DNA of 64,000 nt, from the NCBI RefSeq assembly GCF_003382285.1, contig NZ_QTJR01000002.1:1-64000 (forward strand). Direction: 5' to 3'. The notes under the pieces were generated by a model. That model was given only the letters and a program-made list of their open reading frames with translations, did no database searches and had not been told where the DNA came from. A program made the translations under genes and the position numbers. Origin of the DNA: Lysobacter soli (lineage in GTDB: Bacteria; Pseudomonadota; Gammaproteobacteria; Xanthomonadales; Xanthomonadaceae). Positions 24,197 to 49,900 of the stretch are shown piece after piece (the first letter of the stretch is position 1; each line of letters begins with the position of its first letter).

Positions 24197-24976
24197 CTAG
24201 GGCGCGTTGCTGCTGCCGTTCGTCCGGCCGATGCGGGTTCCAGGCACGACGCCGCGCTCGCGAAGGTCGCGCAACATGCGCAGGCCATCCGCCTCCAGCG
24301 CGGCCGGCTCGGCGCCGACACGCGAGGCCAGCGCCGTCAGATGCGCGCGTCCGGTCCATGCGTGTTTCGCCAGCGACTCCAGGAGGCTGTAGACGAGCGG
24401 CGAGATGCGCGTGAATTGCACCTGGTGCTCCGCATCGCGATGCACGAGCAATGTCGTCGGCGTATCCGGCGCGGCGTCGGGACGATGCTGCGGACCGATG
24501 TCGGCGACCGGCCATCGATAGATCAGCGGCATGGCAAGCGGCGACAACACGGGCACGCCATCGAGCAGATCGCCGTCCGGATCGTGCGCCGGCAGCGACG
24601 CATCGCTCACGAACAACGCCTGTTCCACCCATTCGTAGTGCGCCAGTTCCGGCAGCCACGGCGGGATCGCGGCATCATCCGCGCGGCCTTCGAGGTACGT
24701 GACGAACTCGCCGGCGATCTGCGTGAACAACGGCGTGCGGCTGCGATGGCCCGCGTAGAAGGCACGCACCAGTTCCAGCCAGATGGTCGTCCCCAGCGTT
24801 TCCCGGATGACCGGGAAGCCGCCCGCCAGCAGGCCTTCGATCGAGTGGAAGAAGAGCTCGCGATACACCTTCAGGCGACGATCCTGCACGCCCGGCGGCG
24901 GACGGTTGCCTTCGGGATCGCGGATATGGCGCGCCAGCGCGAATTGCTGCTCGCGTAGCGTGGTCTCAGGCAGCAC
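24197..24976 (-). CDS. bufC: BufC/HvfC-type (DUF2063) RiPP-modification partner protein
   Basis: 259 residues, overlapping the MNIO gene's 3' end by 11 bases. The N-terminal DUF2063 domain shows [41 protein letters not shown] and [14 protein letters not shown]-terminal winged-helix-like part follows. The family delivers the precursor peptide to the MNIO enzyme and is required with it for thiooxazole or oxazolone/thioamide formation on precursor Cys. The downstream neighbour is only an HlyD relic, so this ends the operon. Confidence 0.9.
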
Positions 24977-25826
24977 GGGTTTGCTTCAGCAGACGCTGAC
25001 GGTCGAGATGCGCCAGCTGCATCGCCCGGATGCGGTTGGTTTCGAGCAACAGCTCGTGCAGCGGCGGGAAGTTGAAGTCGCGTTCCAGCAGCGTCGGCCG
25101 CACGCCGAAGCGGCGATACGCGGCGTCGAGCAACGTCCACACGTCGTCCTTCACCGGTGCGCCGTGCGTGTCGACCTTCAGGTCGATGTCTTCGTCGTAA
25201 TGGCCGGCGATGTGGTACTGCGCGACGCGTTCGGCCGGCAGGCGCGCGAGGAAATCCGCCGCGTCGTAGCCATGGTTGATCGCGTTGACGTACAGGTTGT
25301 TGACGTCGAGCAGCAGGTCGCAATCGGCCTCGGCCAGCACGGCGTTGATGAAATCGATCTCCGCCAGCGCCTGGTAGGGCGCGGCGTAGTAGCTGACGTT
25401 TTCCACCGCGATGCGTCGCTCCAGCACGTCCTGCACCTGTCGAATGCGCGCCGCGACGTGCGCGACGGCTTCGTCGGTGAACGGAATCGGCATGAGGTCG
25501 TACAGCTGGCCGTCGTCGGTGGTGTAGCTCAGGTGCTCGCTGTACATCACGACGCCAAGGCGCTGGTTGAACTCGCGCGTGCGACGCAGCAGCTCCATGT
25601 CCAGCGGCGCGACGCCGCCGAGCGACAACGACAGACCGTGCGCGCTGATCGGGAATCGCGTCGCGATCTGGCCCAGCTGTTCGCCGAACCGGCCGCCCAC
25701 GCCGATCCAGTTGTCCGGCGCGAGTTCGAGGAAATCCACGGCGCCATCGTCCATCGCCAGCAGTTCCGGCATGAGGCCGCGACGCAGCCCGAGGCCGGCG
25801 GAGGCTTGCGATTCGAGGGTGCGCAT
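24966..25826 (-). CDS. bufB: MNIO (DUF692) multinuclear iron oxidase, BufB/HvfB type
   Basis: 286 residues, the usual length. TIM-barrel MNIO motifs are visible in order: [53 protein letters not shown] and [11 protein letters not shown]. These hold the His, Asp, Glu and Asn ligands of the iron cluster. MNIO enzymes oxidatively convert Cys residues of RiPP precursors into heterocycles that bind copper or other metals. It sits 80 bases downstream of the Cys-rich precursor gene and overlaps bufC. Confidence 0.93.
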
Positions 25827-25906: not shown

Positions 25907-26446
25907 TCACTTGCCGAAGTGCGAGAACAGGCCGGCCGGCATCGGCTTGCCGTTGGCCTCGTAGGTGGCCTTGAGGAAGTCGTAGGCTTCCTTTTCCGAG
26001 GCCTTGCCGTCGCCGGACACGTCGAGCTTCGCGAAGTCGGCGGCGCGCGTCGGCGCCACGGCGATGAACTCGGCCTTCGACACGAAGCCGTCGTCGTCGC
26101 TGTCAGTCCTGGCGAACGAGGCGTCGCCACACTTGCCTTCACCGCACTTGCCTTCGGCCGTCTTCGATGCGGTGGCGGCCTTGGCCGGCTTGGCGCCATC
26201 GGCACCGCACTTGCCTTCACCGCACTTGCCTTCGGCGGCCTTCGATGCGGTGGCGGCCTTGGCCGGCTTGGCGCCGTTGGCGCCGCACTTGCCCTCACCG
26301 CACTTGCCTTCGCCCGCGGCCTTGCTGGCGGCGAGCATGTAGCCCTGGCTGAGCGGTTCGATGGCGAACGCGGACGTGCTGAGGGACAGGCCGGCGAGGG
26401 CGAGACCGAGCAGGCCGACGGTGTTGCGGGTGTTGGAGGTGGACAT
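25907..26446 (-). CDS. bufA: BufA/HvfA-type RiPP precursor with three EGKCGEGKCG repeats fused to two EF-hands
   Basis: 179 residues from the ATG at 26446 (GGAG eight bases upstream). A Sec signal ends near SLSTSAFA (28). Residues 46-107 hold three double motifs EGKCGEGKCG at a 26-residue period, Cys at 49/54, 75/80 and 101/106, joined by ADGAKPAKAATASK linkers. The last 65 residues hold two canonical EF-hand loops: D115-x-D117-x-D119-G...E126, and D142-x-S144-x-D146-G...E153. EGKC Cys are the substrates of MNIO enzymes. A calcium-type EF-hand module on a precursor is unusual. The product is probably a periplasmic metal-binding protein that keeps its C-terminal domain. Confidence 0.9.
   Translation of the reverse strand: MSTSNTRNTVGLLGLALAGLSLSTSAFAIEPLSQGYMLAASKAAGEGKCGEGKCGANGAKPAKAATASKAAEGKCGEGKCGADGAKPAKAATASKTAEGKCGEGKCGDASFARTDSDDDGFVSKAEFIAVAPTRAADFAKLDVSGDGKASEKEAYDFLKATYEANGKPMPAGLFSHFGK
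26120..26311 (-). repeat. Three in-frame 78-bp repeats inside the precursor gene
   Basis: Each 26-codon unit encodes EGKCGEGKCG plus a KPAKAATASK linker. The units are nearly identical at DNA level, so they probably arose by recent tandem duplication, and copy number may vary between strains. The repeat is coding, not a CRISPR. Confidence 0.85.
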
Positions 26447-26531: not shown

Positions 26532-27209
26532 TCAGGCGTTGACGAGTTCGCGTCCGGAGTCGCCGCGAGCGCGGTTCCAGGCGAGCAGTCCCGCGCCGAC
26601 GAGGGCCAGCGCGCCACCGGCGACAGGCAACAGGAGCGACACCGCTGCGCCGATGCCGAGCAGGACGGCGCCCCAGGCGGTGGCGTCGGCGTTCGTCGGC
26701 GAGGCCAGCGAGCTCCACCAGGCGATCAGCCGGTCCACACTCAGGCGGCCACCGCCGTTGAGCATCAGCGGAACGAGCATCACCAGGTAGATCAGCGGGA
26801 GCTTGTAGTTGCCGAACCCGTCGTTGGTGATCGCATAGCCCTGCAGCAGCTCGCCGACGCTCGACCAGTCGGACGGCCAGTGAACGGCGTAGGTCGCCAC
26901 GACGGTCAGCACGAACAGCGCAGCGGCGACGTAACGCGTGCCCAGTCCGAGCAGCAGCGCGATGCCGCCGGCCAGTTCCAGCCACATGGCCGCGTTCCAG
27001 TTGACGTTCGCGCTGAGCAGCGAGAACGGCAGCGGAAACTTGTCCCCGAGGTCGGCGAACCAGTTGGCGCCGTGCAGCTTTTCCAGGCCGGCCTCGAAGA
27101 ACTCCCAGGCCAGCAGCACGCGCAGGCCCAGCGGAGAAAGCCATTGCCCGACGCCATCCACGCGGGAGAAGAAGGGCGGGGCGGCACGGCGGGAGAGGGA
27201 GGTGGACAT
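26532..27209 (-). CDS. bufD: DoxX-family membrane protein of the bufferin operon
   Basis: 225 residues from the ATG at 27209 (AGGAAC four bases upstream). DoxX signatures are [45 protein letters not shown] and [19 protein letters not shown], with four to five membrane segments. DoxX proteins regularly accompany MNIO RiPP operons and are proposed to help the product or its redox chemistry at the inner membrane. It is the first gene of the four-gene operon; the precursor follows after 85 bases. Confidence 0.85.
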
Positions 27210-27324
27210 CGTCGTTCCTGCAAGGGAGGCCATCGGCGTTGGTGCGCATTTCAGCCACGCCCGGTATCAGGCTTGTGTCGCGCACGCCGACGCCCCGACG
27301 CAAAACGTGTCGTCGGGCAGGGCG

Positions 27325-27339
27325 GATACGTTTCGATAC
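27325..27339. promoter_or_regulatory. Direct repeat GATAC-N5-GATAC upstream of the bufferin operon
   Basis: GATAC occurs at 27325-27329 and 27335-27339, one helical turn apart (GTATC-N5-GTATC toward the operon), about 115-130 bases before the DoxX start. Such spacing is typical of tandem regulator sites or an ECF -35/-10 region. Assignment is inferred from position only. Confidence 0.35.
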
Positions 27340-27457
27340 AAACCCGTCAGGCACGGGTCAGCGATCCGCCGATGGCGGATGTCTCGGAGTGCGGATGCGT
27401 GCCGGGCGCTGATCGCGCGAGTGGCCCTGTCAGCCAGGGCGCATGGTCAGGCGCTGC

Positions 27458-46974: not shown

Positions 46975-49900
46975 ATGACCAAGCCGCCCCATCGCGACGC
47001 AAAGCCGAAAGGCGCGGCAGACGAGCAGCCGGGGCAGGCGCGCGCCAGCGATACCGCAGCGTCCGCGAACGTGCCGCTGATCGTCGGAATTGGAGCCTCC
47101 GCCGGCGGCCTGGAGGCGTACAAGTCGTTCTTCGAGAACCTCGAAAGCGCGGACGGCATGGCCTTCGTGCTCGTCTCGCACCTCTCGCCCGACCACGCGA
47201 GCATGCTGCCGGAACTGGTGGCGCGATACACCTCGCTGGCGGTGATGGAAGCGGCCGACGGCATGGACGTGGAAGCCGGCCACGTCTACATCATTCCGCC
47301 GGACGCGACGCTCACCATCAGCGGCGGCGTGCTGCAGCTGAGCAAGCCGGCGCCGCCGCGGCAGTACCGTTTTCCGATCGACACGTTCTTCGCCTCGCTC
47401 GCCGAAGACCAGGGCGACAACGCGGTGTGCATCATCCTGTCCGGCGCCGGCAGCGACGGTGCGCGTGGGCTCGGGGCGATTAAGGAACGCGGCGGCCTCA
47501 CGCTCGCGCAGGCGGCGATCGACCACATCGCCATCGCCGGCATGCCGGCCAGCGCCGCGGCGACGGGCCTGGTCGACAACATCGTCCCGGTCGAACAGAT
47601 GCCGGCGCGGCTCAAGGCGTACCGCGCACACCTGTCCACGGCGCGCACGCAGAAGGGTCCGGATGGCATGCGGCAGGACCTGAGCCACCACCTGCAGGCG
47701 ATCTGCACATTGCTGCGCGCCGAAGTCGGCCACGACTTCAGCCAGTACAAGGAAAAGACGCTGATCCGTCGCATCCAGCGACGCATGCAGGTGGTGCAGA
47801 TCGACGGCGTCGCCGGCTACATCGACTACCTCAAGCAGACGCCGCGGGAGCTCGACAACCTGTTCCGCGAGCTGCTGATCGGCGTCACCGAGTTCTTCCG
47901 CGATCCGGAAGCGTTCGAGGCGCTGCAGACGCTCGCCATTCCCTCGCTGCTGGAAGGCAGGAGCGCCGCCGACACATTGCGCGTGTGGACGCCCGCATGC
48001 GCGACGGGCGAGGAGGCGTATTCCATCGCGATCTCGCTGGCCGAAGCCATCGCGGCGCGCCGCGGCGGCCCGAAGGTGCAGATCTTCGCCACCGACATCG
48101 ACGACCGCGCGATCAACGCCGCGCGTGCGGGCCGCTTCCGCGCGCCGCTGCCGGGCGTGTCGGCCGAACGGCTGGAGCGCTGGTTCATCCAGGACGGCGA
48201 GCACTACGTCGTGGTCAAGCCGATCCGCGAGATGGTCGTGTTCTCGCCGCACAGCGCCATCAAGGATCCGCCGTTCTCGCGCCTGGACCTGATCTCGTGC
48301 CGGAACCTGCTGATCTACATGAATTCGGAGCTGCAGGAGCACCTGATCCGCACGTTCCATTACGCGCTGCGGCCCGGCGGCGTGCTGATGCTCGGGCCGT
48401 CGGAAAGCCTGGGCCGCAATACCGCGCTGTTCTCCGTGCTCGACAAGAAGCATCGCCTCTACTCGCGTCGCGCCGATGGTCGCGCGAGCCTGCCGATGAC
48501 CACGCCCAAGCGCCTGGCCGGCATGGAAGCGGTCGCGCGGGTGCCGGTGGTGCGCGGCGGCGGCATCGAGGATGCGATCGACCGCAACGCGCGGCGCGTG
48601 CTCGACAAGCACTCGCCGGCGTACGTCGTCATCGACGCCAACCACGACGTGCTGCGTTTCTCCGGCGATACCGGGCGCTATCTCGGCCCGTCGGCGGGCG
48701 CGGCGAGCCTCAACCTGTTCGCGCTGCTCAACAAGGGCCTGCGCGGACCGGCGCGCACCGCGGTGCAGCAGGCGCTGGTCCGCCACAACACCGTCGTGCA
48801 GGAAGGCCAGCTCACCGGACCCCACGGCGAGCGAATCCCGGTGCGCCTGATCGCCGAGCCGATCCACGAACAGGACGATGGCAACGCCGAACGCCGCGCG
48901 CCGTCGTCGCTGTGCATCCTGGTGTTCAAGGAACTGACGCCCGTCGCAGCCGTCGCCGAATCGACCACGCCCAACGGCCGTCGCGCGCGCGGCGAATCGG
49001 CGCGCATCCGCGAACTCGACCTCGAACTGGCCACCACGCGCGAGCAGCTGCACACGGCGATCGACGAGCTGGAAACGGCCAACGAGGAGATGAAGTCGGC
49101 CAACGAGGAATACCAGTCGGTCAACGAGGAACTGCAGTCGTCCAACGAGGAACTGGAAACCTCGAAGGAAGAGATGCAGTCGATCAACGAGGAGCTGCAG
49201 ACGGTCAACGTCGAGCTCAACAGCAAGAACGAGGCGCTCGCGCGACTCAACAGCGACCTGCAGAACCTGCTGGAAAGCACGCAGATCGCCACGCTGTTCC
49301 TCGATTCGGCGCTGCACGTGAGCGGCTTCACGCCGGCCATCAGCGACCTGTTCCACCTGCGAGAAGGCGACCACGGCCGGCCGATCACCGAGATCACCGC
49401 GCGCATCCCGTACCCGCAGCTCAAGCAGGACGTGAAGCAGGTGCTGCGCACGCTGGCGATGGTCGAGCGCGTGCTGCACGGCGGCGTCGATGACGCGGTC
49501 TACCTGTTGCGCATGCGCCCCTACCGCACCACGGACAACGTCATCGACGGCGTGGTGCTCACCTTCATCGACATCACCGAACGCCAGCAGCACGAGTACG
49601 AACGCGCGCGGCTGGCGGCCATCGTCGAATCCTCGCAGGACGCGATCATCGGCCACAGCCTGGAAGGCATCATCACCAGCTGGAACGCCGGCGCCGAAAG
49701 CATGTTCGGCTATCCGCCGGCGCGTGCGATCGGCAAGCCGCTCTCGGTGCTGCTGCCGCCGGATTCGAAGAAGGACCTCGACACGCTGCTGGAAGCCTCC
49801 TCGCGCCAGATCAAGGCCGAAGAGCTGCTGATGACGTGGATACGCGAGGACGGCACGCCGGTGCCGCTGTCGCTGCGCTGCTCGCCGGTGCTGGATCCGG

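Follow-up and report, generated by a model that had tools for sequence, protein, structure and literature searches.

A predicted EfhP-branch MNIO precursor with EGKCG repeats and a C-terminal EF-hand pair in Lysobacter soli, and its BfmR-like promoter box

Results

The precursor gene and its operon

The window analyzed here is a 64,000-nucleotide stretch of Lysobacter soli DNA (contig NZ_QTJR01000002.1, positions 1 to 64,000). An operon with the gene order hvfX-hvfA-hvfB-hvfC lies on its minus strand, and consists of the DoxX-family gene hvfX (26532..27233; NF050144 above cut-off), a precursor gene (25907..26446), the MNIO enzyme gene hvfB (24966..25826; PF05114, with NF003818 above cut-off) and hvfC, which codes for a DUF2063 partner protein (24197..24976; NF050145 above cut-off). 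Flanked by MNIO, DUF2063 partner and DoxX genes, the precursor sits in the neighborhood that marks the HvfA / Buf_EGKCG group. Its reading frame translates to 179 amino acids without an internal stop and scores 51.6 bits against the NCBIfam profile NF050137 (KCGExKCG_twice; cut-off 19.5), and we describe it as an EF-hand-bearing EGKCG precursor of the HvfA/EfhP type.

By-eye reading of the translation gives a candidate Sec-type signal or leader, MSTSNTRNTVGLLGLALAGLSLSTSAFA, at residues 1-28 (26363..26446, minus strand). It is followed by three EGKCGEGKCG units on the same strand, starting at residues 46, 72 and 98 with a spacing of 26 residues: unit 1 with Cys49 and Cys54 (26282..26311), unit 2 with Cys75 and Cys80 (26204..26233) and unit 3 with Cys101 and Cys106 (26126..26155). 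These six cysteines are the only ones in the protein, and together with the operon they bear out the original prediction of an HvfB/HvfC (MNIO) precursor with six candidate cysteines. The same prediction spoke of three 78-bp repeats. A tandem repeat with a period of 78 bp is indeed present (2.4 copies, 92% matches, score 327), although only two units are complete, being identical at 72 of 78 nucleotides, and the third copy keeps the motif before giving way to the EF-hand pair. A conserved tail, NGKPMPAGLF, was recognized in an alignment of 9 sequences at residues 165-174 (25925..25954, minus strand). Elsewhere in the window, positions 49076-49210 hold a 21-bp tandem repeat (6.4 copies, 71% matches). 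A search of a plasmid collection returned no match, and plasmid-borne spread was dropped as an explanation.

Two canonical EF-hand loops follow the EGKCG units on the minus strand, as had been predicted: loop 1, DSDDDGFVSKAE, at residues 115-126 (26069..26104), and loop 2, DVSGDGKASEKE, at residues 142-153 (25988..26023). Both are supported by the loop search, by AlphaFold2 and by the family. Pfam EF-hand_6 falls slightly under its threshold (E 2e-5; 24.4 bits, cut-off 25), as does EF-hand_5 (20.8 bits against 25.9). AlphaFold2 builds a helix-loop-helix pair with a mean pLDDT of 85-89 over residues 121-160 in a model with an overall pTM of 0.39, and the EGKCG arm has no confident fold (pLDDT below 50 for residues 1-109, 109 of the 179, with a nine-sequence alignment). 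The EF lobe is the sole confident fold in both models that were built. The Foldseek hits to the precursor model were EF-hand proteins, and no hit reached E ≤ 0.001; the best phmmer match in the PDB had an E-value of 0.23. Lanmodulin-like lanthanide binding was set aside, as the profile score of 16.2 bits is far below its cut-off of 135.

Relation to EfhP, HvfA and the bufferins

Sequence places the precursor, a Lysobacter-group protein, in the EfhP or 'Buf_EGKC|EF-hand' branch of HvfA-type MNIO precursors, and its design is a known one that is common among related bacteria. A second type of Buf_EGKCG/oxazolin precursor carrying two C-terminal EF-hand_5 domains was described by Antoine et al. 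2025 (PMC12452194), who cited EfhP and suggested roles in copper and calcium homeostasis or signaling for the EF type. Their type and the window locus have in common a predicted transmembrane or signal segment, EGKCG motifs, two C-terminal EF-hands and genes for MNIO, DUF2063 and DoxX proteins. They differ in that the published type has a short EGKCG domain without 17-residue repeats, whereas the window precursor, which also lacks a 17-residue period, repeats every 26 residues and has three double motifs.

EfhP (PA4107) of Pseudomonas aeruginosa contains EGKCG repeats (PMC11559002) and is thought to be in an operon with DUF692 and DUF2063 genes (PMC4053335). The protein binds Ca2+ at 13.7 uM with NMR shifts, a structural change and a Ca-dependent rise in hydrophobicity (PMC9132961), and deletion of efhP impairs calcium responses (PMC11559002). 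In the published work as covered, the emphasis is on calcium signaling and iron, not on copper, and control by CarSR is also reported (PMC11559002). Going by EfhP's published description, the two proteins are alike in having EGKCG repeats and two EF-hands; four repeats are reported for EfhP, whereas the window precursor has six, and hvfX lies directly upstream of it at the window locus.

Among the better-characterized relatives, the EGKCG captophorins carry 5-thiooxazoles and bind copper (PMC13097082), and Haemophilus HvfA has a secretion signal, which is proposed to serve as the leader, and three AEGKCGEGKCG motifs with six cysteines (PMC13419390). Both HvfA (PMC13419390) and the captophorin FonA (PMC13097082) are modified. 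HvfA (an oxazolin) and FonA (a fontiphorin) resemble the window precursor in their EGKCG repeats and HvfBC-type enzymes, and differ from it in the EF pair: the term 'EF-hand' has no occurrence in the two papers (PMC13097082, PMC13419390). The HvfA equivalog profile NF050188 scores 40.9 bits on the precursor against a cut-off of 95, so the precursor is not filed as an HvfA equivalog. The bufferins Buf1 (DUF2282) and Buf2 are likewise linked to MNIO enzymes and copper and have a Sec signal (PMC12452194), but they belong to another precursor family; PF10048 (DUF2282) has no match on the window precursor at E ≤ 1. Of the initial label 'Bufferin/HvfA-type', the HvfA half stands and the Buf1 half falls away.

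Relatives, architectures and repeat number

A match at E ≤ 0.001 was found in 137 of 197 genomes of the same family, EF-less EGKCG proteins included. Extraction of precursors, in which reading frames without a usable start were skipped, yielded 164 distinct EGKCG precursors from 172 loci: 72 whose EF pair is C-terminal (the window precursor among them), 44 of a sandwich form with the EF pair between EGKCG modules (for example L026, L028, L038, L043, L055, L056 and L066) and 48 without EF-hands, counts that are not frequencies because the loci were fetched with C-terminal-EF queries. A class-level sample collected with the EGKCG model alone gave 68 distinct precursors, of which 64 were EF-less, 4 sandwich and 0 C-terminal (70 loci, 4 of them without a precursor, including L210, a 100-base placeholder; 71 rows, 5 partial). 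The window genome itself has a second MNIO locus (L002, G000:C1:515991-517239; wider stretch L248) with a precursor of the sandwich kind. On the minus strand of L278, a 73-residue EGKCG reading frame lies beside hvfX and is perhaps a truncated precursor. Two records, titled Bacillus subtilis SK7B5 (L147) and Pantoea sp. Cy-639 (L098), have hvf operons that are Lysobacteraceae- or Pseudomonas-like and may be mislabelled or contaminated.

The 72 distinct C-terminal-EF precursors rule out an unusual fusion or a chance event at the window locus. They also speak against the initial view that MNIO precursors normally end soon after the EGKC motifs, since a C-terminal EF pair defines a type that already has a name (PMC12452194). 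Many characterized precursors with the same EF-hand module had been named beforehand as the finding that would speak against the idea; in view of the named type and the 72 examples this is largely what was found, in that such precursors are described in number, though not characterized chemically.

The expectation of a variable copy number holds between species, with 2 to 8 cysteines among the 72 C-terminal-EF precursors. The window gene and 11 others have repeat periods of 17 to 31 residues. Spacers are more alike within genes (mean identity 0.68, 20 pairs) than between them (0.47, 541 pairs), a value reached in 0 of 2000 permutations (16 genes with at least two spacers), and the nearest-matching spacer lies in the same gene for only 17 of 34 spacers. 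Together, the spacer and period data indicate that unit number and spacing change by lineage.

In the loop counts, 71 rather than 72 C-terminal-EF proteins are used because L142 gave only one loop. EF1 is canonical in 60 and EF2 in 70 of these 71, and both loops are canonical in all 44 sandwich proteins, although part of this canonicity is built in, as the loop finder required D at position 1 and D, E or Q at position 12. Gly6 of EF1 is missing in 11 of the 71, which indicates that two working calcium sites are not always required.

A fixed spacing between the last cysteine and EF1

In all 71 C-terminal-EF proteins, the last cysteine (Cys106 in the window) stands 9 residues before D1, the first calcium ligand of the EF1 loop. 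This count carries a bias, as 25 of the 71 fit the second peptide pattern, which fixed that spacing; the register is also 9 in all 46 proteins found by routes free of the spacing (21 from the family search and 25 outside the fixed-spacing pattern). It is kept in 9 of 9 representatives below 60% identity, though the D1-to-D1 distance varies from 25 to 27. Sandwich proteins have a distance of 6 in 36 of 44 and of 9 in six. A short helix begins within 4 residues of the register cysteine in two models, at low confidence (block pLDDT about 43-69). A heterocycle at that cysteine would cap the entering helix of EF1; a conserved domain that simply begins at this point would explain the constant register just as well.

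Precursor architecture was also compared with a FastTree phylogeny of 160 MNIO proteins. Mapping the three architectures onto the tree takes 12 changes, where shuffled labels need 68.2 on average; for the C-terminal-EF group the numbers are 2 and 30.3. Near-copies inflate this clustering. A single MNIO branch (support 91, unstarred) holds 33 C-terminal rows and one sandwich row (L023). On the evidence of this tree, MNIO enzyme and precursor architecture move together, and one MNIO branch is almost exclusive to the C-terminal type.

A direct-repeat box shared with a stress-type regulator operon

Genome and family pattern searches identified a direct-repeat box, TTTGTATC-N5-GTATCC, upstream of hvfX (27324..27342, minus strand), which is similar to the published BfmR motif. 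The exact box has two copies in the whole window genome, and two more places match with two mismatches. The second exact copy (the C23 site) precedes an operon for Ohr, a TlpA/redoxin protein, an OmpR-family response regulator and an EnvZ-like kinase. The box is absent from the 500 bp before the second MNIO locus of this genome (L002), where the best site has 5 mismatches.

With up to three mismatches allowed, the box precedes 61 of the 72 C-terminal-EF genes and only 4 of the 92 other EGKCG genes (3 of 44 sandwich and 1 of 48 EF-less), and a reversed-pattern control precedes 3 of the 72. The regions compared were those around hvfX where hvfX precedes the gene and otherwise the 400 bp before the precursor, an inequality by which a farther-upstream promoter in the other architectures could be missed. 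The figure of 61 counts L001 as a miss though the window site is exact, and L121 (L315) likewise, the choice of start codon having displaced the upstream regions. Among the C-terminal-EF genes that were not used in finding the box, it precedes 44 of 51. The enrichment has a Fisher p of about 2e-28, relatedness being ignored.

Across 119 genomes of the family, sites with at most one mismatch number 33, against 7 for the reversed pattern. All 12 exact boxes have hvfX/hvfA or regulator/Ohr/TlpA genes no farther than 1.5 kb away; at three of the 12 (two genomes) the regulator is at about 1 kb. Five of the 18 one-mismatch boxes examined adjoin regulon-type genes and 13 do not; 3 more were left out. 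A search of 16 genomes that allowed one mismatch also turned up several sites with no regulon-type gene next to them. In L297, L304 and L306 the box comes after the kinase gene and hvfX follows about 0.8 kb on, and in Steroidobacter (L315) an exact box lies between the hvf genes and the regulator operon, which run away from it in opposite directions.

An exact 17-mer form of the box occurs 27 times in 59 genomes of a Pseudomonas genus group, against 0 for the reversed pattern. Twelve of the 27 sites lie by a regulator gene whose product is 71-78% identical to that of the window genome, 2 lie by DipZ/TlpA genes, 3 precede EF precursors (one of them then followed by Ohr), 1 lies by hvfX with a short EGKCG reading frame, 3 precede hvfB-hvfC, 1 precedes a DUF2282-like gene (by eye) and 5 precede other genes. 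In L285 (1668-2613), an orphan EF-hand EGKCG precursor has an Ohr gene directly after it. The DUF2282-like case, L277, has a 90-residue reading frame that by eye is of the Buf1 type and stands 172 bp after the exact box, which hints that the regulon may extend to other bufferin families.

Because the C23 regulator adjoins thiol-disulphide genes, DsbRS was considered as a candidate; it was dropped given the BfmR motif and the efhP data. The P. aeruginosa BfmR motif is TACAA-N3-GATACA (PMC8025907), with TGTATC-N3-TTGTA as its reverse complement, and this consensus is matched at 9 of 11 positions by the window site and at 10 of 11 by the C23 site. The top three ChIP regions of BfmR are the promoters of efhP-pa4106-pa4105, pa4103-pa4104 and bfmRS, and efhP is the gene most highly activated by BfmR (PMC8025907). 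As motif, gene order and target agree, we propose that the OmpR-family regulator at the C23 operon is BfmR-like. The shared box suggests that a known stress-type regulator governs the C-terminal-EF class of copper peptides. Among the matches listed from a library with few subscription papers, none joined BfmRS to MNIO chemistry.

Precursors without a neighboring MNIO gene

Thirty-three C-terminal-EF loci have no MNIO gene within the fetched flank, one of them (L105) near a contig end where a neighbor may be cut off. The genomes of 28 of the 33 all have MNIO genes elsewhere (26 of 26 genomes), which says little alone, since MNIO genes are common in the orphans' genus (96 of 119 genomes). Within 600 bp before the 46 MNIO genes of these 26 genomes, box-like sites with up to three mismatches occur at 22, against 4 for the reversed pattern, and at up to two mismatches the numbers are 13 and 0. 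Twenty of the 22 sites lie at 155-234 bp. Likewise, 20 of the 22 boxed MNIO genes have no EGKCG precursor in that stretch, and they are spread over 20 of the 26 genomes. This pattern, drawn from sequence comparison, supports, without proving, the view that the orphan precursors are matured in trans by a remote, co-regulated MNIO enzyme. Precursors without a neighboring MNIO gene were raised as a question in PMC12452194, and co-regulation in trans would give it a testable answer.

Discussion

We consider it likely that the window encodes an HvfA-type precursor of the EfhP branch with HvfBC-modified cysteines, a periplasmic copper arm and a Ca2+-binding lobe, under control of BfmRS type. Starting from the computed anatomy, family, register and box with its company, we infer cysteine modification, metal binding, calcium-driven folding and regulator binding as follows. 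HvfB-HvfC would modify the six cysteines in the cytoplasm, most likely to 5-thiooxazoles, and the modified precursor would then be exported via Sec. In the periplasm, the flexible EGKCG arm would bind copper and the C-terminal EF lobe Ca2+. The main job of the lobe would be to delay folding until export has brought it to abundant Ca2+, and so to provide a stable, possibly calcium-responsive anchor for the disordered metal arm directly behind the last modified cysteine. A BfmRS-type two-component system of the OmpR family would drive expression of the precursor and hvfX within an envelope response to thiol and oxidative stress (Ohr, TlpA/DipZ). A protein combining metal and calcium binding, as first envisaged for this locus, is plausible by analogy, as EfhP binds Ca2+ (PMC9132961) and captophorins bind copper (PMC13097082).

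Three other readings of the EF pair bear on this proposal. It may be a purely structural stabilizer or export-folding module, always loaded by periplasmic Ca2+ and without any sensing, a reading to which we give serious weight while leaning slightly against it. Its two placements, C-terminal in 72 precursors and flanked by EGKCG modules in 44, are what one expects of a movable domain, and the lobe is the only part that folds confidently in either model; yet the canonical loops (70 of 71 for EF2, 44 of 44 in the sandwich proteins) go beyond what a generic stabilizer needs, even if this is partly built in by the loop finder. A protein that is first of all a calcium sensor, in which the lobe changes shape with Ca2+ and signals to a partner, following the proposal made for EfhP, with the EGKCG arm as a secondary metal or redox sensor, is possible, though we regard it as doubtful. 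The affinity, NMR shifts and hydrophobicity change of EfhP (PMC9132961) and the phenotype of the efhP deletion (PMC11559002) argue for it, and the conserved NGKPMPxGLF tail could be the regulated element. Against this, Gly6 of EF1 is degraded in 11 of 71 proteins, an EF pair is missing from 48 of the 164 distinct EGKCG precursors, and the company of the box includes thiol and peroxide stress genes.

The original prediction also offered the EF-hands as a device that positions the core peptide for the MNIO enzyme, read here as placing it in the active site. The fixed register (71 of 71) and the nearly separate MNIO branch of the C-terminal type are what such a role would produce, but we think it very unlikely: cytoplasmic Ca2+ is low, and of up to eight cysteines the register fixes the position of the last one alone. 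FonA and HvfA, moreover, are modified without an EF-hand being mentioned in the text covered (PMC13097082, PMC13419390), and for HvfA the signal peptide is the proposed leader (PMC13419390). A bolder extension of the preferred reading, in which an EF lobe anchors a copper arm, would treat the last thiooxazole and the first calcium site as a coupled unit. With the EGKCG motif at a fixed distance (9 residues, or 6 in 36 of 44 sandwich proteins) at the start of EF1's entering helix, cysteine modification would reshape that helix and the Ca2+ state would set copper affinity; the dual-metal protein would then be a chief output of an ancient BfmRS-type circuit for envelope thiol stress that also controls the maturase where its gene is remote. 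We offer this as speculation that is more likely wrong than right by a good way.

The sandwiched EF pairs, the cysteine-to-EF1 register, the regulator box in its cross-family reach and the link to orphan MNIO genes were not found in the text of PMC12452194 as covered or in the rest of the cited literature to the same extent. Antoine et al. tie EfhP-like fusions to MNIO enzymes (PMC12452194), so that parts of one system appear to have been described under different names, in the work on EfhP and BfmR on the one hand and on EfhP-like fusions with MNIO enzymes on the other. The EfhP study used recombinant protein from E. coli and PA4106 is not mentioned in its text as covered (PMC9132961), and the metal chemistry of EfhP may therefore deserve repeating on the mature form. 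The conserved box, found from a Lysobacter-group window, suggests a link between BfmRS and MNIO enzymes that extends across Lysobacteraceae, Pseudomonas and Steroidobacter.
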